Shown: positions 7,824-41,612 of the stretch, piece after piece
Layout of the letters: each line of letters starts with the position of its first letter
How positions within the stretch are numbered: position 1 is the stretch's first letter
IMG/VR virus record: IMGVR_UViG_3300025112_000047
Span: 1-41,612 of that record
Source: a virus
DNA: 41,612 bases
Direction: 5' to 3' (one strand)
Translations under genes and position numbers: made by a program
The notes under the pieces: model-generated
The model's input: the letters and a program-made list of their open reading frames with translations, nothing else
Told to the model about the DNA's origin: nothing
Database searches by the model: none

Positions 7824-8732
7824 TTACGCGCCGGGCGAACCAAACACGCCACGGAAGTCGGTGACGCCGAAGGAATAACGCTCATAGCACTTGGCTTTAG
7901 CATTCTCCGTATCGAAATCATTGTCCTGCGTGAACTGTGCAGCAGTACGCTCGTAGCAGATCAAGCCGCGAGGTGCGTTGGTCCGAATAAACCAGGCATC
8001 GGTGTCGGTCAGGTAGTGGTTGACTTTAACCCCTTCAGGGATCGAGCCATCCGCGCGCAAGACGTTCACCGCGTTGTTCGCGGTATCGTTCTGAAGTGTC
8101 GAGTTCAGAATACGGCCGGCGTCAAACGAGAGAGCCGGGGGTACAATGAGACACTTAGGCATCAGACTGATTTTCAGACCACGGTCGTTTGTGGCGGTCA
8201 TAATCTGAATAACCAGATCTTCAACAGACGCCTCAGAAAGATCGGAGGCGGTAGCAAGCTTGTTAGACTGACTGCCCGACAGAGTCGGGTGATTGGTCGC
8301 TAACAGTTTAGTACCGTCGCCGAAAGTGTAGCTGCCGCTAAACCCGCGATTGTAGACTTGGGCAGCCACGGTCTCTTTGGTTTGACGCATTGAGAACGCA
8401 TTAGCAGCAGCGCGGCGCTTAGAGACAACCTCGTATTGGCTATCGTCCAGTTCTTCCTTAGTCACGATGTAACCAAGAGAGTAAGCGACGTGCGTATACC
8501 GAGACACATAACCTTGTGTCTCCGAATCGTACTGCACGGCGGCACCTTGCGCTTTAGCCGGCGCAAGACCAAACCCGGTCAGTTGGACGTCTTCTTCGTA
8601 CGCTTGCGTAGAAGTGTCCCGGTCGAACAGCATAGTATGCTCAACCTTGTGTTCGTCGTAGTTACGACCCCACCAGACCTTAACGCCAGGCCAGAGGGCT
8701 TTCGGGTGACTACCGGTTGTAATAACAGCCAT
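7824..8732 (-). CDS. Major capsid protein
   Basis: 302 residues, led by the very strong ribosome site AGGAGGGT. The protein has the HK97-type order seen in Mu gpT-like head proteins: an N-terminal region with 'VEHTMLFDRDTSTQAYEED', an E-loop-like stretch ('GYVSRYTHVAYSLGYIVTKE'), a spine helix ('RRAAANAFSMRQTKETVAAQ') and the C-terminal 'CYERYSFGVTDFRGVFGS'. It follows scaffold and decoration-like genes and precedes the tail-adaptor genes, where a capsid gene is expected. Bases 8050-8090, inside this gene, are exactly repeated at 28931-28971. Confidence 0.88.
   Translation of the reverse strand: MAVITTGSHPKALWPGVKVWWGRNYDEHKVEHTMLFDRDTSTQAYEEDVQLTGFGLAPAKAQGAAVQYDSETQGYVSRYTHVAYSLGYIVTKEELDDSQYEVVSKRRAAANAFSMRQTKETVAAQVYNRGFSGSYTFGDGTKLLATNHPTLSGSQSNKLATASDLSEASVEDLVIQIMTATNDRGLKISLMPKCLIVPPALSFDAGRILNSTLQNDTANNAVNVLRADGSIPEGVKVNHYLTDTDAWFIRTNAPRGLICYERTAAQFTQDNDFDTENAKAKCYERYSFGVTDFRGVFGSPGA
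8050..8090. repeat. 41-bp exact repeat, capsid copy
   Basis: Identical and same-orientation copy of 28931-28971. Here it lies inside the minus-strand capsid gene (coding near 'NDTANNAVNVLRADG'). It contains a 6-bp stem with a TTGTT loop (8068-8084). The match stops sharply at both ends. Confidence 0.97.
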
Positions 8733-14964: not shown

Positions 14965-15296
14965 ATCACGGCATCTACGGTGAAGCTCACTGCGTCCGCG
15001 ATCAGGCTCTTCGGATCGGCGTCGTCGTAGGTCAGTTGCGCCTGCCACGCGCCGGCCTGATCGAGCAGGCCGCTCTCGATGGTGTAGTCTACGTACTCAC
15101 TCGCGGCAAGCACGCCTAGCGTGGGGTCAGTTACACCGGCGCCCACAACAATGCCGTCTGCGGTGACTTTGGACACGGTACTCTCGTCAGGCTTTACGAA
15201 CTTGATCGTGATCTCGGTTTCGCTCGCCATGTTGTAACCGGTAGAATAGCGGAATAACCGCCCGTATTCGCCGACTTTCAGATTTGTATTGGCCAT
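14961..15296 (-). CDS. Beta-rich structural protein; 5' end duplicated upstream
   Basis: 111 residues with an all-beta pattern ('ETEITIKFVKPDESTVSKVT', 'SEYVDYTIESGLLDQAGAWQ', 'ADAVSFTVDAVI'), like a small Ig-like or tail/head accessory protein. Its first 19 codons (MANTNLKVGEYGRLFRYST) are repeated almost exactly at the start of the 43-residue reading frame at 15574-15705. Both copies follow a TAGATG junction. It probably belongs to the virion set, but no known family is claimed. Confidence 0.6.
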   Translation of the reverse strand: MANTNLKVGEYGRLFRYSTGYNMASETEITIKFVKPDESTVSKVTADGIVVGAGVTDPTLGVLAASEYVDYTIESGLLDQAGAWQAQLTYDDADPKSLIADAVSFTVDAVI

Positions 15297-15299
15297 CTA
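15239..15299. repeat. 61-bp near-exact direct repeat, copy A
   Basis: Matches 15648-15708 with three differences. It covers the stop codon of one gene and the first 19 codons of the next in both places. The homology ends abruptly within codon 20. Confidence 0.92.
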
Positions 15300-15584: not shown

Positions 15585-15705
15585 TGGTGTCCTCGGGAAA
15601 ATAAGAGTTTATGAAATCGTCGTCCAGCTCAATGCCGAGCGCCGTGGCGGTAGAATAACGGAATAACCGCCCGTATTCGCCGACTTTCAGATTTACATTG
15701 GCCAT
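15574..15705 (-). CDS. 43-residue hybrid small protein
   Basis: The reading frame starts ATG at 15705, right after the TAG of the upstream gene, and stops inside the start of the 95-residue gene. Residues 1-19 copy the N-terminus of the 111-residue protein (MANVNLKVGEYGRLFRYST). The rest ('ATALGIELDDDFINSYFPED') is unrelated to it. It looks like either a recombination product or a small real gene that gained its front end from its neighbour. No function is assigned. Confidence 0.4.
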   Translation of the reverse strand: MANVNLKVGEYGRLFRYSTATALGIELDDDFINSYFPEDTNGA

Positions 15706-15708
15706 CTA
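15648..15708. repeat. 61-bp near-exact direct repeat, copy B
   Basis: See copy A at 15239-15299. The repeat gives the small hybrid reading frame its start codon and first 19 codons. Confidence 0.92.
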
Positions 15709-17023: not shown

Positions 17024-17184
17024 AAAATAGGGGTATGAGTTCGATGGATTTAAAGGAACCCGTAACCCCTTCCGGCAATTTTTAGGTAAAAATAGCTCAG
17101 ATTTCAAAGTTGGGGCCCTATATAGATGGAACGCCGGCATTTAAAAACCCGGGAAGGGGGGTCGGCAAGGGCGGCCAGACACAA

Positions 17185-17292
17185 GCCTGCAGTCTTGCCT
17201 GCAGTCTTGCCTGCAGTCTTGCCTGCAGTCTTGCCTGCAGCCTGGCCTGCAGCCTGGCCTGCAGCCTGGCCTGCAGCCTGGCCTGCAGCCTG
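17185..17292. repeat. Nine tandem 12-bp repeats at the divergent junction
   Basis: Units 1-4 read gcctgcagtctt and units 5-9 read gcctgcagcctg, end to end from 17185 to 17292. Each unit holds the palindrome CTGCAG. The array sits in the non-coding gap between the late minus-strand unit and the plus-strand small-gene island. Frames on both strands stay open through it because 12 is divisible by 3, but they look like by-products. It could bind TerS (pac), a replication initiator or a regulator. Confidence 0.95.
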
Positions 17293-17744: not shown

Positions 17745-17760
17745 ATTTTCTGCAAGAATA

Positions 17761-17794
17761 GGCAAGCTAAATTGTAAGACCAACGGCATGGGCA
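17761..17794 (+). repeat. 34-bp intergenic repeat, copy 1
   Basis: The 34 bases match 18508-18541 with two differences (core GGCAAGCTAAATTGTAAGAC). Both copies lie about 30 bases before the start of a small gene, which suggests a shared leader or regulatory element or a remnant of gene duplication. Confidence 0.9.
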
Positions 17795-18466: not shown

Positions 18467-18507
18467 CGGCACAATCCGCAACCTGAAAAAAATATGTGCG
18501 GTGAATT

Positions 18508-18541
18508 GGCAAGCTAAATTGTAAGACCAGCGGCAAGGGCA
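18508..18541 (+). repeat. 34-bp intergenic repeat, copy 2
   Basis: See 17761-17794. This copy stands 31 bases before the ATG at 18572. Confidence 0.9.
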
Positions 18542-27364: not shown

Positions 27365-28330
27365 CTATACCGCCTTTGAGTAAAACCAGTTTTCAGTCGT
27401 TTCAGCCGCTAACGGCAGCCCTTCGGCCCAATCCGGCACGTATTCCATCTCAGCCGTTAACTCAGCTTTGACATTATCGGCGCGATCTTCGGGGCACTCC
27501 GCGATCAATTCATCGTGCGTATGCCCTACCAGATCGATCCACATATTATTGTTTTCGCACCGACGGATCGCGTCGCGCAGTAACGACGCCGCAGTGGCCT
27601 GCGTAACGTTCTCGGCCAGTATGCCGTGCCACATAGTTGTGCGAGTGTGACCTGACTGGTATCTCAATTTGTACTCAACCAGCTCGTCGCCATATTCGTC
27701 CTCGGTGACGACACGGTCGGTTTTTAGCGCGGGGTAGGTCAGAGCCCGCCCACAGGGCAGGAACATAAACATCGTACCAAACAAATATTTGGGCCGGTAT
27801 ACAAAGGTGACCCGCCCCGCTTTGAACTGTGAATTAGGTGACCGGCGGGCGTTTTGGAAAGCCTCGCCAAGCTGCGACCAAAAATTTGTCGCCCACTTAT
27901 TATTCTTGCGCCAGGTATCAACCACCCGGTTTGTTAGAGCCGCGTCGAGGCTCAAGCCATACGCGGCAGCCATCGAGGCCAGCGCGCCTACCCCGCCGCC
28001 GAAGCCCAAAGCCAGCTCGGCCACTTTACCTACTTGCCGCTCTTCTTTACTGACCTTAGCCGGGTCTACAGCATAAATGTCGCCAGCTGCGATTTCGTAC
28101 AGTCCCGGCAGATTGGGGTCGGCGTCACAGCTCTCAAATAGCTCTAGTCTGTGTTGCCCCGGCGTGCCCGCGAGCCACGGCAGAACCCGGGCCTCGATTG
28201 CGCTCCAGTCACTCCATACGAGCGTGTTGCCCGGGCCGGCGATCAGCATGGGGCGGATCAGCCGTGATAATGCGCGGGGAGCAGACCCGAATTTGGCCTC
28301 AAACTTGTCTATGACTAAAGCGTTAATCAA
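27365..28330 (-). CDS. DNA polymerase I (family A), C-terminal palm/fingers half
   Basis: 321 residues, TTG start at 28330 with GGAGGAG seven bases ahead. All three polymerase motifs are present: A 'WSDWSAIEARVLPWLAG' (Asp41), B 'ERQVGKVAELALGFGGG' (Arg98, Lys102) and C 'VGHTHDELIAE' (His272, Asp273, Glu274). The exonuclease, thumb and the 'GRFSS' segment are missing; they are in the gene at 31279-32520 on the other strand. Intact relatives are about 750-800 residues; the two halves add to 734. The start overlaps the VRR-NUC gene end, so the half is properly translated, not a fragment left by chance. Confidence 0.9.
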   Translation of the reverse strand: MINALVIDKFEAKFGSAPRALSRLIRPMLIAGPGNTLVWSDWSAIEARVLPWLAGTPGQHRLELFESCDADPNLPGLYEIAAGDIYAVDPAKVSKEERQVGKVAELALGFGGGVGALASMAAAYGLSLDAALTNRVVDTWRKNNKWATNFWSQLGEAFQNARRSPNSQFKAGRVTFVYRPKYLFGTMFMFLPCGRALTYPALKTDRVVTEDEYGDELVEYKLRYQSGHTRTTMWHGILAENVTQATAASLLRDAIRRCENNNMWIDLVGHTHDELIAECPEDRADNVKAELTAEMEYVPDWAEGLPLAAETTENWFYSKAV

Positions 28331-28640: not shown

Positions 28641-28771
28641 GGAGCCTTCCTACAGTGAGCAAGTAAATCGCCATTTTTGTCTCTTCGTACATCCATGTAA
28701 TTTACCCTTGACTTGCGAAAAGCGTGGGCCCAAAATGAGCCCATCGCAACGAAAAGTCAACAGGTGATGTC
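28641..28771. other. Divergent promoter region between the replication units
   Basis: 131 bp between the VRR-NUC start (minus) and the first plus-strand gene. It carries the plus promoter at 28708-28736. A minus promoter is expected but none stands out. Confidence 0.6.
28708..28736 (+). promoter_or_regulatory. Promoter of the plus-strand replication operon
   Basis: TTGACT (28708-28713), 17-bp spacer, CAAAAT (28731-28736), 35 bases before the ATG at 28772. Confidence 0.6.
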
Positions 28772-28897
28772 ATGGCCCCCCGGCATTTCAAGCTAGCTTA
28801 CTTCATATGCGCGGCAGCATATGTAGCCATTGTTGGATTTTTAATAGGTATGTTTGTGACAGCGACCGTGCGTTGGCTAGACGAGTTGCTAATGTGA
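28772..28897 (+). CDS. 41-residue membrane protein
   Basis: The ATG at 28772 has AGGTGA ahead. Hydrophobic 'LAYFICAAAYVAIVGFLIGM' forms one membrane span; a short tail 'RWLDELLM' follows. The stop overlaps the next start (TGATG). Not recognised; a small early inner-membrane protein. Confidence 0.5.
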   Translation: MAPRHFKLAYFICAAAYVAIVGFLIGMFVTATVRWLDELLM

Positions 28898-29208
28898 TGG
28901 CAGTGGACCCCCGACGTTTAATTACTGCTTTCCGCGCGCAAGACGTTCACCGCGTTGTTCGCGGTATCGTTACTTCGGTGACACCGAGAGGATGGAACGA
29001 ATTGGAAAATAATCAGGCTATGCTAGCCTTAAAAGCACTATCTAGAGAAAAGCAACAGCCGTACAACGTATACAAGCGTCGTAAATATACCACCTCGGAA
29101 GAGGCACACCTGCGGCTGTCGGACGTGGCGAATGAACTTGGCATGACAATTTCGGAGGTCGTTGAGGCACTGATTTTGTCGGGCATACCGGAGGCGAACG
29201 AGAAATGA
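28897..29208 (+). CDS. Small protein containing the capsid-derived 41-bp repeat
   Basis: 103 residues from the ATG at 28897 (TGATG coupling). Residues 12-25 ('FRAQDVHRVVRGIV') are encoded by the 41-bp copy of capsid DNA, read in the opposite sense to the capsid gene. The C-terminal part 'LRLSDVANELGMTISEVVEA' is an HTH-like or helical segment and looks like the ancestral protein. Because 41 is not a multiple of three, the insert must have changed frame or given the gene a new front. Its last codons overlap the next gene (ATGA). Confidence 0.5.
   Translation: MAVDPRRLITAFRAQDVHRVVRGIVTSVTPRGWNELENNQAMLALKALSREKQQPYNVYKRRKYTTSEEAHLRLSDVANELGMTISEVVEALILSGIPEANEK
28931..28971. repeat. 41-bp exact repeat, early-operon copy
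   Basis: Identical, same orientation, to 8050-8090 inside the capsid gene. It contains an ACCGCG/CGCGGT hairpin with a TTGTT loop (28949-28965). RNA from the plus-strand operon is perfectly complementary to the capsid mRNA over this stretch. Confidence 0.97.
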
Positions 29209-30416
29209 ATGTTATGCCCCACTCCACGACAATCGGCGGATCGAGCGCCGCGCGCGTTCTCGCGTGCCCGGCCAGCATGAAGCTTTGCGCGAGCATGCCG
29301 AGGTCGCCCGACAGTGATTACAGCCGCGAGGGCACAGCTCTGCACTCCGCGGTCGAGTTTGCGCTACAAGACGGCCGCTTGCCGTTCACGAGCGACACGT
29401 CGTCCATGATTGGCCGCGTGTTTGACGGTATCACCTTGACCGCGGAGCACATTGACACTTGCATTGACCCCGCTCTCAGTATGTTCGATGAAGTCTACGA
29501 TGAATACGTCGAAAAGTCGGGCGAAGTGGAATTTGTGCTTGAGCAGAAGGTCAAGTTCCCCGGTATACCGAAAGCTTTCGGAACGGCCGACCTCACCCTA
29601 TCCGCTGAACACGGCGTGGCTATTCTAGATTGGAAGTTTGGACGCGGCGTAACCGTAAGCGCGCACGAGAGCGCGCAGGGAATGTTTTACGCGCTGGGCG
29701 CGGTGACGACGAAGACCGATGGCTTTCCCGATGACCAACCAGTCGAGATTATTATTGTACAGCCGCGTATTGCGGAAGAACCGTCCCGGTGGGTGACCAA
29801 CGGGGCGCGGCTCAAGCAGTTCCAGACCGATTTGATCGCCGCGTATGAAGAAGCGATTGGGGACAGCCCCAGCTACGCGCGCGGCGAACATTGCCGGTTC
29901 TGTACAGCCAAGCCGGTTTGCCCTCAATATAAAGACGTGGGGCAGAAGCTGAACGCGCTGGTTGCTAAAAAAGCGGACCCGGTGGTCGAGAATTTTACGC
30001 CTGAAGATTTGGCCGAATGGGCGCGGCAGGCAGACATCGTTGAGGCGTGGGCCAAAGCCGTGCGGCAGCTGATGATGCAAGAGGCCGAAGCAGGCCGACC
30101 GCCGACGGGAATGAAACTTGTGCAAAAGCAGGCAAATACTTCGTGGGTTAACGACGATCCTAAAGCTATTGATCGCATGCTGGCGCGCCTTGGCCTCGGG
30201 CTGGACGTGCGACGCCAGCCATGGAAAAACGCCAGCCCCACGCAGGCTAAAAAGGCACTTAAGAAGCTGGGTAAAGAGCTGCGCGATGGCGTAACACAGC
30301 GGCTGCCCGGTAAGCCGGTGCTGGTACCCGACGACGATCCCCGGCCGGCAATTGTGACGCACGAAGAGCGTGTCGAGAAGATCGGTGTGGCTTTGCACGA
30401 TTTGGAGCAAGATTAG
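29205..30416 (+). CDS. DUF2800-type Cas4/RecB-like PD-(D/E)xK nuclease
   Basis: 403 residues. Catalytic block: 'KAFGTADLTLSAEHGVAILD' followed by WK (Asp in 'TAD', D-W-K). C-terminal cysteine cluster 'CRFCTAKPVCPQY' (C-x2-C-x5-C), with an N-terminal Cys in 'LACPASMKLC' probably completing an iron-sulfur site, as in Cas4/AddB-type nucleases. 'REGTALHSAVEFAL' gives the conserved His. A role in replication-recombination is inferred from the family and from the following polymerase and helicase genes. Confidence 0.85.
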   Translation: MNVMPHSTTIGGSSAARVLACPASMKLCASMPRSPDSDYSREGTALHSAVEFALQDGRLPFTSDTSSMIGRVFDGITLTAEHIDTCIDPALSMFDEVYDEYVEKSGEVEFVLEQKVKFPGIPKAFGTADLTLSAEHGVAILDWKFGRGVTVSAHESAQGMFYALGAVTTKTDGFPDDQPVEIIIVQPRIAEEPSRWVTNGARLKQFQTDLIAAYEEAIGDSPSYARGEHCRFCTAKPVCPQYKDVGQKLNALVAKKADPVVENFTPEDLAEWARQADIVEAWAKAVRQLMMQEAEAGRPPTGMKLVQKQANTSWVNDDPKAIDRMLARLGLGLDVRRQPWKNASPTQAKKALKKLGKELRDGVTQRLPGKPVLVPDDDPRPAIVTHEERVEKIGVALHDLEQD

Positions 30417-30488: not shown

Positions 30489-31202
30489 ATGGCGAATGAA
30501 ATAGCTGAACAAGACGAAGCGCTTGCGAAACTGCAGGTTGCGGTGCGCAACACCAAGCGGTCCATGCCGAATGTGGGTGGACCGGTGCCTTATCTGAAAA
30601 TGGGTAAGGATGGTTTTTGGGTGTTTGGTGCCAAAAACGAAGAGGTACAAGACGGCTCACTTTGGGCCATCGACCCACTGTCTTACCGGTACGGCTTTGT
30701 GTGCTGGACGAACTACCCTAAAGAGGCTAAGCGTAAAAATGAGAACCTCGGTGTAATGACCGTGGCGCTCGATGAAGAAGCGTTGACGCTGGACGACATG
30801 CCTACCCGGACGGACAAAGACACCGGGAAGAATTGGCCGTGGGCCCCTGTGATCGAAATGCGTCTTAAGTGCGTATTTGGTGAAGACCAGGGTACTGAGG
30901 TCTTATGGCAGACGTCGTCTGTGGGTGGCACAAGGCTCGGTTCAGAGTACCTTGAGGAGTTAGACCGCAACATCGCCAAGGGCCTACCAGTGGCCGTGGT
31001 GAAGTTGGTGTCGGAGTCTTATGACCACACGCAGTATGGGAAGATTTACACCCCGACGTTTGTGTATGATCGGTGGTTGCCTTTAGGGACCACCAGTCTG
31101 GACGACGCTCCAGAAGAGATCGAAGCTCCTGTTGCTGACGAAGAGGTTAAAAAAGACGCCGCTCCCGCTCCCACACGGAAGCGTCGTCGCCCGGCGGCCT
31201 AG
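30489..31202 (+). CDS. Unknown replication-operon protein, possible ssDNA-binding protein
   Basis: 237 residues. The core is beta-rich and aromatic ('PVPYLKMGKDGFWVFGAKNE', 'PLSYRYGFVCWTNYPKEAKR', 'TYGKI'-like 'HTQYGKIYTPTFVYDRWLPL'). The tail is acidic, then basic ('APTRKRRRPAA'). It stands between the nuclease and polymerase genes, where many phages encode a ssDNA-binding protein; that is the only basis for the suggestion. A strong terminator follows, so its level may be set apart from the polymerase. Confidence 0.5.
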   Translation: MANEIAEQDEALAKLQVAVRNTKRSMPNVGGPVPYLKMGKDGFWVFGAKNEEVQDGSLWAIDPLSYRYGFVCWTNYPKEAKRKNENLGVMTVALDEEALTLDDMPTRTDKDTGKNWPWAPVIEMRLKCVFGEDQGTEVLWQTSSVGGTRLGSEYLEELDRNIAKGLPVAVVKLVSESYDHTQYGKIYTPTFVYDRWLPLGTTSLDDAPEEIEAPVADEEVKKDAAPAPTRKRRRPAA

Positions 31203-31222
31203 CCCTCGGTTCTCTTTGTCAC

Positions 31223-31266
31223 CCCCGGCGGCAGAATCCTCCCCGCCTGCCGCCGGGGTCTTTTTA
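31223..31266 (+). terminator. Intrinsic terminator before the polymerase N-half
   Basis: Perfect 12-bp GC-rich stem (31223-31234 with 31247-31258), 12-base loop, then TCTTTTT. It lies inside a co-directional operon, so only part of transcription should reach the polymerase and helicase genes. Confidence 0.9.
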
Positions 31267-31278
31267 AATAAGGAAAAC

Positions 31279-32520
31279 ATGACCGACCTCGTACAATCCA
31301 TCGACCAAATCTGCTTCATGGATAGCGAAACGCGCCGAGTCGCGGGCACGACTTGCCCTAACGTGATCAAGGCGGGCGGTCACCGTTATTTTGACAACTG
31401 TTTCGCTACCATCTGGTCTTGGGCCGTCGGCAACGCCCCCATCGAAATTGCGTCTTTACGTCACGGTTTCGATGGGCGGCTGTCGTGGGAGCACGACGCG
31501 CCAGACAGGCTTAAAAGATTTTACGAGCGCGCAGAGCGCGGCGAAGCTTACTTCGCCGCCTGGAATATGGCGTTCGACCGGGGCGTGTGGAACGGTCCAC
31601 AAAGCGATTTCCCGCCCCTTCGCATTGATATGACCATCGACGTCATGGCACAGGCCGTCGCGGCCGGTTGCCCGGCCACTTTGGCGGGCGCATCGACGTG
31701 GCTAAACGTGGCGCAGAAGATGGAGGAAGGTAAAAAGCTGATCGACCTTTACGAGCCCCCGGACGGTCTGCAGCCATCAGACCGGCCCTACGATTGGGAC
31801 AGGTTTGAAGACTACGCGATCCGTGATTCGGAAGCACTGCGCGATGTGTACAACGTGACGCTACCGCTATCTCGGGAAGAATGGGAGGTTTACTGGGCCA
31901 GCGAGGCGATCAACGACCGGGGCGTGGGGCTGGATACTTATGCCTGTGCGGCCGTGTCTGTACTCGTTGACGAAAACCTTGCGCGCATGAACGAACGGGT
32001 TATTGCTTTGACGGGCGGCAAGGTCACGGCGATCACGCAGCCCGCCCGGATTATTGACTTCGTGGCGCCCATTCTGCGCGATCACGCTTCTGTAAGGCAG
32101 TCTCTCGTCAAGCGGAAGGCTAAGTTAGGCGACGACGGTACGATAATTCGACCAGAGAAGCTGTCTCTGAGCCGTGACAGGCTGGAAATAGTGCTTGTGT
32201 ACCTCGATGTCTTACAAGAGCGCGAGGGGTTGTCTGACGAGCTACAGCGCGTACACGAGCTGCTGACCTTACGTCATTATGGCGGGTCGGCTACGCCGGG
32301 TAAATTCTTGAAAGCCCTGAACGTATCGCACGGTGGGCGGCTCAAGGGACAGTATGTGTTCAACGGCGCGCCGCAGACCGGCCGGTTTAGCAGTCGCGGC
32401 GTTCAGATCCATAACCTAACCCGGGCTCACTTGGCCGAGCTGGAAGATGCAGCACTTAACGTCATATCCGCCTTGAAGGACAAACGGGTTCGCGCGCGGG
32501 TCAGAGAGATGGGGTACTGA
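31279..32520 (+). CDS. DNA polymerase I (family A), N-terminal exonuclease/thumb half
   Basis: 413 residues from the ATG at 31279 with AAGGA ahead; the open frame extends to 31132 but crosses the terminator. A DEDDy 3'-5' exonuclease is visible: 'FMDSETRR' (Asp15, Glu17), 'AAWNMAFD' (Asp100) and 'YAIRDSEAL' (Tyr179, Asp183). The thumb region 'LTLRHYGGSATPGKFLKAL' and the front of the polymerase fold 'FNGAPQTGRFSSRGVQIHNL' follow. Then the gene ends with 'ARVREMGY' and a stop. Motifs A, B and C are absent here and are in 27365-28330 on the minus strand. The two proteins are expected to associate. Confidence 0.88.
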   Translation: MTDLVQSIDQICFMDSETRRVAGTTCPNVIKAGGHRYFDNCFATIWSWAVGNAPIEIASLRHGFDGRLSWEHDAPDRLKRFYERAERGEAYFAAWNMAFDRGVWNGPQSDFPPLRIDMTIDVMAQAVAAGCPATLAGASTWLNVAQKMEEGKKLIDLYEPPDGLQPSDRPYDWDRFEDYAIRDSEALRDVYNVTLPLSREEWEVYWASEAINDRGVGLDTYACAAVSVLVDENLARMNERVIALTGGKVTAITQPARIIDFVAPILRDHASVRQSLVKRKAKLGDDGTIIRPEKLSLSRDRLEIVLVYLDVLQEREGLSDELQRVHELLTLRHYGGSATPGKFLKALNVSHGGRLKGQYVFNGAPQTGRFSSRGVQIHNLTRAHLAELEDAALNVISALKDKRVRARVREMGY

Positions 32521-38530: not shown

Positions 38531-41496
38531 TATTCACCTTCCGGCGGGCTAAAGTTTTCGTGTACTTCTGATTTGTCTAAATATTCCTGAAAACTGGACA
38601 CCAGTTTATCGTAGTGTTCCATGTATTGCACCCTCACAGCTTCGCGCGCATCTTCGTCTAGCGTTTGATCACGCAGCTTCCAATCTAAGCGCGACATCAC
38701 ATCTGCTATCTCGCGTTCTTTTTTTGTTATGTTAAGAGAACGTGTCTGGTGGGGCTCTACGGGGTATATGTTAATACCTACACCTCTTAATGCAGCTTGT
38801 GTCAGCGTGGGAGACGGGTCGCCGTAACGATTTACGTCGCTTCGATAGTGATCGTATAGCTTTCCCGCTAACCCTATATCAGTAAGCCAAGTTGGCGCGG
38901 CCATGCGCCACATATATCTAGTGATATCCGCCATCTGCACTGCAGGGGGGTCTGCTTTATTGGCTATCGGTCGCTCTGTATAAGGGTCTATATTTGTTTG
39001 GATCGCACTGAGTACTTGGGGGATTGGGCCCCCAAAAAACCCGGTATCTTTCAAAAGGCCTCGTATATCGCCGTCAGCCACCGTCCCTATTGCTTCAGCG
39101 AGCTGCCCCCACGGCATGATGTAGCCGAGATCCACAAACTGTATGCGCCTGTCTTCGTCTAGCACCGGGAGAGCGTACATACTGCTCTTGTTGTGTGTCC
39201 ACTGGGGCAAGGCTTTACGCAGAGCGTCAACGTCCTTTTGAGTAACATCGTACTGTTCTTCGATCATCTTAGCCATAGCAGTATTCATCACCATGTACGG
39301 CAGATACCGCTCGGGGTGCTTAACCGCAATTTCTGCCATCTGCCCGGTAGACTTGTACATGAAAGTTATGAAGGGGCTGCCTAACGGAGCACTTCGAGCC
39401 TTTCTCACCGCGTCGGGGATAAGCGAATAATCGAACAGAGCTTTATGCGCTTCCAGTGCGGCTTTCTCTTCGCCCACCCCCTTGCTAAGAAGATGGCGAA
39501 TCATGGCCGTTTTAAACACCGATTCAGATAGCTGGTAAATTTCTCCTGCTTTGTTACCTACGCTCCCCGCCATATACTTCACCGTGTCCAGCGGGCTTTT
39601 GGATTTATTAAGCATCTGTAGCATGTCTTCTTCGACGCGGTACAATTCGTTGTGGCTGAATGTCGTTGATGTCACGCCGTATTTCTGCGCGACTTTCCAT
39701 GCGTTCCCTCCTGTTTGCATGTCCCTGATAGCTCCGTAAACATTTTTAGGCACCGCGTGTAAAGGTACGCCCCCCAAGTTCATCAGAATAGCGTTCGATA
39801 TAAAGTTGCGTACCTGGGTAGGCGGGTTTAACGCCACTTTGGACAGCTTCCACAATTGGTTAGCGCGCACTGATTTATGGTATATTTTTCCTACAAGCGA
39901 GTCTGCGTCTGTAACAAACCCGACCGCGCCCTCGATGTCGTTGGCTATCTCTTTTCTTACTTCCATTCCCCGCAACGCGCCGTACCGGGGGTTATCGGGG
40001 ATAATTTTGTAGTCTATGTGCGGCACATCAATGGCCGCTTCGCCGCGTGCTACCTTCTCTAGTGGTGCTTCAGCCTGTTTAATCAACTCGTCCATTTCGT
40101 CGGCTAGCAACAGGACATCTGCCTGTTCTGCTTCGTCCATATACGAGGCTTGAGCTTTGAGCCGCGTGGATTCATCATACATCCACCGAGTAGACACGTT
40201 GCGGCCGTTCCACTCCACGACAGTGGTGGGGTTCACCCACTCCGGTTTTTTTGATATCTTCTGTAAGAAGGTATCCATCACTAAATCATGTGACGGTACA
40301 GCTATGCCCTTGGAAGCAACATACCCTGGGTCGGTAATTTCGCCGAGTATTATACGTCTCACGTCTTCGGGTATGTATTTCCGCGACCGTAGATACCCTT
40401 GGTCTGACAGCTTTTTACCCGCTGTTCCCTGCGCGCCGTCTCCCCGCTCAAGCAAGTGTTTTAGGTACACCCGAGGCAAGTAGCTTCCTCGATTCGCTTC
40501 ATACACTTCTTCCGACAGCTTGCCTCTTTTAACGAGTTCGCGCCCTATTTTATCTATTGTTTGTTTTGTCTGCCATGCAGCTACACGAACTTTACGAGAC
40601 TCTATGCCAGCCGGTAAGGCGTCTTTGGTCGTTAGAAATTCGTAGGCTGCTTTTTGATCCGCTTCAGAGGCGTTGTTAAACACTCTAGCTACGTGTTTGG
40701 TCACGTCATCAATGGCACTTATTTTTCCAAGCGTTCGATATCGAAGGGAAAGGTACTCATCTTTTTCAGGTACTTTGCCGAGGGGGGCTAATTTGTACCC
40801 GAACGTGTCGTAGAATCTGTTTGTGAACTGCTGCGCGTTATCTCGGTATATTTTAGCTACGCCCCCTGAGATCATTTTTCCGCCTTTGGCGCTGGCTTTT
40901 ACGAACCCAGCACCCACGCCCAAAGTCAGGGCCCCCGCGCCTACCGCGAATTTATTGCTGTAACTTTGAAAATCAGACACGTCCAACCCGGCGGCCTTGT
41001 ATGCCTCGTCTCTTTTTACGTCGTCTATCGCCAGCAGCATACTGACAAAAGGAGTAAAATCGGCCACGCCAATTTCTACGCCGTTGGTAGTGCCGAACTT
41101 ACCTATGGCTCGCCTGAGCGGTGGCGGGCCAGGTAAGTTTCGTATAGATGCAGGAGTCCGGCCAAAACGATCTAATGTGCGTTCGACGGGGTTTTTATCC
41201 CTTAGCCCGGTTTCAGACGCGGCGTCTAATCGTTTATACGGCCGCAACGGGCGCGATGTCTCCTGCGCGGCTGCATCCAACATCAACTGCTGCTGTTCTG
41301 TCACATCGTGCATACGAGTTGGCGGAGGCGCTAGAGCTTCGATCTCGTCTAGCGTAAACGTGTTTAGATTATGAGAGGGCGCAGAGCGCGCTTCGATTTC
41401 ATCGAGAGATACATAACGAGGACGCGTAGATACCGGGGCAGGGACCGTTTCATCGCCCGGCGCGTCTCTAGCCTCTATCTCTTCCAGCGTTAACAC
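38530..41496 (-). CDS. Large internal virion / ejection protein (large polyvalent protein type)
   Basis: 988 residues, GTG start three bases after the upstream stop (across the contig join). The first 58 residues carry three copies of a short motif ('LTLEEIEARDAP', 'VSLDEIEARSAP', 'FTLDEIEALAPP'). The middle and C-terminal part ('WKLSKVALNPPTQVRNFISN', 'GNKAGEIYQLSESVFKTAMI', 'PFITFMYKSTGQMAEIAVKH') matches the large polyvalent protein domain found in phage internal or ejected proteins. Hydrophobic segments near 180-200 and 785-800 may insert in membranes. It probably forms part of the trans-envelope DNA conduit. Confidence 0.75.
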   Translation of the reverse strand: MLTLEEIEARDAPGDETVPAPVSTRPRYVSLDEIEARSAPSHNLNTFTLDEIEALAPPPTRMHDVTEQQQLMLDAAAQETSRPLRPYKRLDAASETGLRDKNPVERTLDRFGRTPASIRNLPGPPPLRRAIGKFGTTNGVEIGVADFTPFVSMLLAIDDVKRDEAYKAAGLDVSDFQSYSNKFAVGAGALTLGVGAGFVKASAKGGKMISGGVAKIYRDNAQQFTNRFYDTFGYKLAPLGKVPEKDEYLSLRYRTLGKISAIDDVTKHVARVFNNASEADQKAAYEFLTTKDALPAGIESRKVRVAAWQTKQTIDKIGRELVKRGKLSEEVYEANRGSYLPRVYLKHLLERGDGAQGTAGKKLSDQGYLRSRKYIPEDVRRIILGEITDPGYVASKGIAVPSHDLVMDTFLQKISKKPEWVNPTTVVEWNGRNVSTRWMYDESTRLKAQASYMDEAEQADVLLLADEMDELIKQAEAPLEKVARGEAAIDVPHIDYKIIPDNPRYGALRGMEVRKEIANDIEGAVGFVTDADSLVGKIYHKSVRANQLWKLSKVALNPPTQVRNFISNAILMNLGGVPLHAVPKNVYGAIRDMQTGGNAWKVAQKYGVTSTTFSHNELYRVEEDMLQMLNKSKSPLDTVKYMAGSVGNKAGEIYQLSESVFKTAMIRHLLSKGVGEEKAALEAHKALFDYSLIPDAVRKARSAPLGSPFITFMYKSTGQMAEIAVKHPERYLPYMVMNTAMAKMIEEQYDVTQKDVDALRKALPQWTHNKSSMYALPVLDEDRRIQFVDLGYIMPWGQLAEAIGTVADGDIRGLLKDTGFFGGPIPQVLSAIQTNIDPYTERPIANKADPPAVQMADITRYMWRMAAPTWLTDIGLAGKLYDHYRSDVNRYGDPSPTLTQAALRGVGINIYPVEPHQTRSLNITKKEREIADVMSRLDWKLRDQTLDEDAREAVRVQYMEHYDKLVSSFQEYLDKSEVHENFSPPEGE

Positions 41497-41612
41497 GAGC
41501 TAGTCTGCCTCCTCAAACAAGCCCTGCCCTACGTACTTATATTTTCGCCCGTTAATTTCGTACACAGTTCCTTTATCCATGCGGGAAACGTCTACTCGTT
41601 GTTCGTCTGTCA
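41448..41612. repeat. Terminal direct repeat, right copy
   Basis: Matches 1-165 with one difference (g at 41503). See the left copy. Confidence 0.95.
41500..41612 (-). CDS. Partial 3' end of the 406-residue protein (duplicate)
   Basis: Same as 53-165: the last 37 codons of the Ala-Pro-repeat protein gene, cut by the contig end. The only difference changes the last codon from GAA (Glu) to GAC (Asp). Not a separate gene. Confidence 0.9.
   Translation of the reverse strand, partial: TDEQRVDVSRMDKGTVYEINGRKYKYVGQGLFEEAD

Follow-up and report, generated by a model that had tools for sequence, protein, structure and literature searches.

A 41-nt copy of capsid-gene DNA in the early region of a phage genome: probable scar of a short duplication

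How does a piece of the capsid gene come to lie among the early genes of the same tailed phage, reading in the opposite sense, and does it have a role there? The question is raised by two segments of the stretch of viral DNA analyzed here (the window, 41,612 bases). Positions 28931-28971, at the beginning of the early operon, are identical to positions 8050-8090, within the gene for the major capsid protein, at 41 of 41 positions, in direct orientation and 20,881 nt apart. The coordinates of the features concerned are collected in Table 1.

Table 1. Features of the window around the two copies of the 41-mer and in the early module
Feature	Position	Strand	Basis or remark
Major capsid protein, 302 aa, Mu gpT-like / Phage_capsid_4	7824..8732	-	PHROG 371, Pfam PF25209, PF10124
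Original copy of the 41-mer, capsid codons 215-227 plus two bases of codon 228, NDTANNAVNVLRAD	8050..8090	-	In frame; about 80 capsid relatives
Family A DNA polymerase, C-terminal part with motifs A, B, C	27365-28330	-	Alignment to intact protein
Sigma-70-like promoter match upstream of the plus-strand operon	28708..28736	+	Motif match
41-aa ORF with one predicted hydrophobic stretch, putative first ORF of the plus-strand operon	28772..28897	+	Translation
Small early ORF P0001 holding the copy, 103 aa	28897..29208	+	Start overlaps stop of upstream 41-aa ORF (TGATG)
Derived copy of the 41-mer, opposite sense	28931..28971	+	Residues 12 (part) to 25 of P0001, or upstream leader
Probable conserved core of the P0001 gene	29002..29208	+	Candidate starts TTG 29002 or ATG 29020
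DUF2800 / PD-(D/E)XK exonuclease, next gene of the early operon	29205..30416	+	phrog_69 E 7e-70; PF10926 E 7e-60
Family A DNA polymerase, N-terminal part	31132-32520	+	Alignment to intact protein

Identity, ends and number of copies

The 41-nt repeat is real and not a product of chance; about 2e-16 exact repeats of this length are expected, and this pair is the only isolated dispersed exact repeat within the window. The description given in the initial annotation, an exact 41-bp copy 21 kb away that diverges sharply on both sides, is accurate: over the next 30 nt beyond the two ends identity is 23% and 17%, and when the 200-nt flanks were aligned locally, their scores were not higher than those of shuffled sequences (p = 0.25 and 0.44). 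The ends of the 41-mer show no visible microhomology. The absence of differences over 41 sites bounds the divergence of the copies only at below about 7%. The window also contains a 61-nt repeat (15239-15299 and 15648-15708, 95% identical, 409 nt apart) that covers the start codon and the first 19 codons (MANVNLKVGEYGRLFRYST) of a minus-strand gene, its upstream-lying copy at 15648-15708 having its own start codon in a frame different from that of the gene between the copies. A 39-nt repeat (17756-17794 and 18503-18541, 92% identical) has its copies 747 nt apart, and 12-nt tandem repeats of the GCCTGCAGTCTT and GGAGCGGGAGCG types are located at 17173-17292 and 417-478.

The early copy had also been suspected to be a mobile short element, a suggestion that finds no support in the distribution of the sequence. 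Within the window the 41-mer occurs at its two sites only, even with 3 mismatches permitted over a 24-nt core. The search for the 41-mer in related phages that had been suggested together with this idea was run on IMG/VR, where neither the 41-mer nor its 26-nt core was found in any contig except those of the same phage, and the 26-nt core has no match among about 85,000 bacterial and archaeal genomes.

Both copies are present, at the same places, in a near-identical IMG/VR contig from another sample (IMGVR_UViG_3300002514_000158, 29,681 bases), whose differences from the window around the copies amount to one N in 3.0 kb and one base in 12.5 kb, so that an assembly slip is unlikely. In a further record, IMGVR_UViG_3300002484_000083, the capsid copy is present and the sequence examined ends short of the early region. 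Creation of the second copy by an assembly artefact might be considered for a metagenome-derived contig, and the 165-nt redundancy of the ends (1-165 and 41448-41612) does have a single mismatch, at position 56. However, the two copies stand in two separate records, the early one is located within an open reading frame, and a graph-based misjoin exploits a pre-existing repeat and cannot make one; this origin is barely credible. Because of the end redundancy and of a second contig that crosses the junction of the genome ends, the window can be regarded as an effectively closed phage genome.

Donor and recipient

The protein encoded around the first copy matches the PHROG 371 major head protein (E = 3e-14) and both Pfam PF25209 and PF10124 above cut-off, and is 52-63% identical to the capsids of MW202785, MW202796 and Alcaligenes phage QDWS535. 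The peptide at residues 215-228 is mostly kept in about 80 capsid relatives from viral contigs. Because the segment is in frame in this gene and conserved in these capsids, the capsid gene is identified as the donor: judged from these alignments, the capsid copy is the original and the early copy is derived. Synonymous conservation of the segment lies at the 95th percentile among windows; it was rejected as evidence for RNA pairing, the relatives used being not known to have the copy.

Mosaic exchange between phages is common, and the segment could also be hypothesized to stem from the capsid gene of a co-infecting phage, since such a donor, if its capsid DNA were the same, could not be told apart. 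However, the only exact match is to this phage's own capsid gene, and the nearest capsid relatives, at 72% protein identity, match at most 34 of 42 nt in the segment, which makes a donor other than this genome very unlikely.

The recipient is less well conserved. Homologues of P0001 were found for residues 42-98 only: these align with a gene of 64 aa that occupies the corresponding position in Microcystis phage Mel-JY33 and Nostoc phage Nsp-JY18, with the DUF2800 exonuclease gene directly after it and a VRR-NUC-like gene diverging from it. Residues 52-97 match phrog_5118. The start residue of the homologues aligns with M42 of P0001 (29020), downstream of the copy, and sequence resembling the 41-mer is absent from them. 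The coding score per codon is 0.26 for residues 42-103, like that of other genes, and 0.07 for residues 1-41; it is about 0.06 for the 41-aa ORF upstream. As the homologues begin at M42 and residues 1-41 score near zero, the copy probably lies in a weakly coding, recent N-terminal extension of the gene, or in its leader if translation starts at ATG 29020 or at TTG 29002, which has GAGAGGA 9-10 nt upstream. A start at 28897 is also possible, given the TGATG overlap with the stop of the 41-aa ORF. The initial annotation had taken the length of the copy, which is not a multiple of three, as a sign of recent insertion, but this argument fails because the reading frame through the early copy stays open.

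The distance from the VRR-NUC start to M42 is 379 nt here, whereas the divergent genes of the Microcystis phage are 46 nt apart; the DNA around the copy, in the divergent early promoter region, is therefore extra and poorly conserved. In a patchwork test, this 379-nt region with the 41-mer masked had no match of at least 12 nt to the rest of the genome, and sigma-70-like matches around 28708-28736 are no more numerous than in shuffles. No close relative of the early region was found in viral contigs, nor was any relative with an empty site, and the P0001 protein had no match in the contigs of 15 relatives, in a search without a positive control.

The 41-mer contains a palindrome, ACCGCG-N5-CGCGGT, and what the two places share might be a DNA site, for example an operator for the small early protein. 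Such a role would be consistent with the occurrence of the perfect dyad in the two copies only, with two predicted helices in the C-terminal half of P0001, and with a weak match of this protein to the MatP ribbon-helix-helix domain (E = 0.025, below cut-off). However, the structure predicted for P0001 alone is low-confidence (pLDDT 46), and the near-matches to the palindrome in the window, 8 against a shuffle mean of 4.5 (7/100 shuffles), are within the shuffle range. Moreover, capsid codons account for the palindrome, which is missing in capsid relatives, and the identity spans 41 nt, beyond the palindrome itself. A shared DNA site is thus highly improbable.

Short duplications and rearrangement of the early module

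Among the three readings put forward in the initial annotation, the recombination footprint is best supported: the copy is exact, its identity stops abruptly at both ends, the flanks are unrelated and have no residual similarity, one copy is ancestral and conserved as donor, and the other, at the recipient site, is derived and unshared with other phages, as in a short illegitimate duplication. The 41-mer at 28931-28971 is most probably the scar of a short duplication from the phage's own capsid gene, made by illegitimate recombination or template switching. In this view, a capsid-gene fragment was copied either to the divergent early-promoter region or to the 5' end of the small early gene. 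Template switching, or annealing of a strand of the capsid gene, while phage DNA was replicated or a break repaired, is the likeliest route, and the copy would have persisted since the downstream early genes stayed readable. The scar is probably neutral; its neutrality is something we infer, as is the timing of the copying relative to other changes in the early region. The source of phage mosaicism is itself debated, between illegitimate and relaxed homologous recombination, and one experimental study regards illegitimate events as the rarer ones (PMC3945230).

For comparison, isolated repeats with spacings >1 kb were surveyed in 1.08 Mb of sequence from 24 genomes and contigs: 13 are contigs of relatives, of which 11 have the capsid and 2 the early module in common with this phage, and 11 are other phage genomes, complete or nearly so. 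Terminal repeats were excluded, as was a single duplicated gene region of Corynebacterium phage CL31. The longest exact repeat was 27 nt, followed by repeats of 24 and 20 nt. The 27-mer, in a contig of a capsid relative (G005; L110 8823-8849 and L111 13452-13478, 24.6 kb apart), has unrelated flanks and is far beyond chance for its contig, and isolated short copies therefore happen in this group. The present case, 41 nt at a distance of 20.9 kb, exceeds in length the isolated repeats of the 24 phages compared, that of G005 included. It marks the upper end of a small sample and is not another kind of event, although its length leaves room for retention by selection.

The template and variable repeats of phage BPP-1 likewise place one short sequence at two places in one phage genome, but the length here is 41 and not about 134 nt, and a Pfam scan of the 28 larger ORFs detected no reverse transcriptase. 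A diversity-generating retroelement was rejected, as the two repeats are identical at all positions and hence have no adenine-specific differences.

The family A DNA polymerase, intact in the Microcystis and Nostoc phages, is encoded in this genome in two parts on opposite strands, which align consecutively to the intact protein with the break just before motif A. In contig L109, exonuclease-(middle gene)-polymerase and VRR-NUC-SNF2 form two divergent arms; relative to this order, the arrangement in the window seems to fit one inversion, about 4.2 kb long, with its ends at the polymerase break and at the junction of VRR-NUC and SNF2. The split-polymerase order also occurs in the second contig (L105), that is, in two assemblies, and a search for short inverted homology at the putative inversion ends gave a 6-nt match only, which is not meaningful. 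The putative inversion supports a history of illegitimate events in the early module, without dating the 41-mer. Two capsid relatives have two annotated polymerase ORFs each (OK172329.1, 27510-29425; MW202796.1, 6923-7633 and 11232-12392), which from the annotation may represent a split polymerase; tblastn of the polymerase halves of the window against these two genomes gave no matches.

Antisense pairing and significance of the copy

The capsid gene and the small early gene lie on opposite strands, as had been pointed out, and a plus-sense RNA from the early region is complementary to the capsid mRNA. It could thus be proposed that the early RNA is a trans antisense regulator whose 41-nt segment pairs with the capsid mRNA, which is then blocked or degraded early in infection, or, conversely, that the early operon is silenced when late capsid mRNA pairs with its RNA just ahead of the start of the small gene. 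Either role is unlikely. The orientation is right, the complementarity is perfect, and the calculated duplex energy of -86 kcal/mol is strong, as for any perfect 41-mer. However, the target corresponds to capsid codons 215-228, in the middle of the gene and far from its ribosome-binding site, and a random insertion yields the antisense orientation half the time.

A hairpin suited to RNA pairing had been noted in the 41-mer. The structure itself is there (6-bp stem, 5-nt loop), but it is not unusually stable compared with shuffles, with folding z-scores of only -1.1 (plus strand) and -1.4 (minus strand), and it is kept in 0 of 82 capsid relatives. Rfam and tRNA scans were empty, and such a copy was seen in no second phage. 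Of the proposed antisense delay of capsid expression, the geometry stands, but the tests done gave no sign of selection for pairing, whether from the target site, the conservation or stability of the hairpin, or sharing among phages.

Early antisense transcripts over structural genes have been measured by RNA-seq in phage PAK_P3 (PMC4933390), and the early RNA of the phage analyzed here would likewise be complementary to a late structural message. However, the PAK_P3 RNAs are cis-encoded opposite the structural region, whereas the complement here would come from a distant copy. Perfect complementarity to a phage mRNA is also a property of OOP, sar, c4 and STnc6030, the last being a prophage RNA antisense to a tailspike gene that mediates superinfection exclusion (reviewed in PMC12197685). 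The present locus differs from these in having no dedicated small transcript, a mid-gene target and no conservation, and STnc6030, like the PAK_P3 RNAs, is cis-encoded and not a product of duplication. It is accordingly improbable that a trans antisense control of the capsid gene has arisen in this phage from 41 nt copied to the leader or the beginning of the first early operon, by which early RNA would restrain capsid synthesis or late capsid RNA would stop the early operon. If true, such a control would represent a simple route by which duplication gives rise to an RNA switch acting in trans between early and late genes. As the probable scar of a short duplication, the early copy would provide a clean example, dated by identity, of short DNA pieces jumping between modules of one phage genome, and would show how antisense capsid DNA may provide a small early gene with new coding sequence for its N-terminus.
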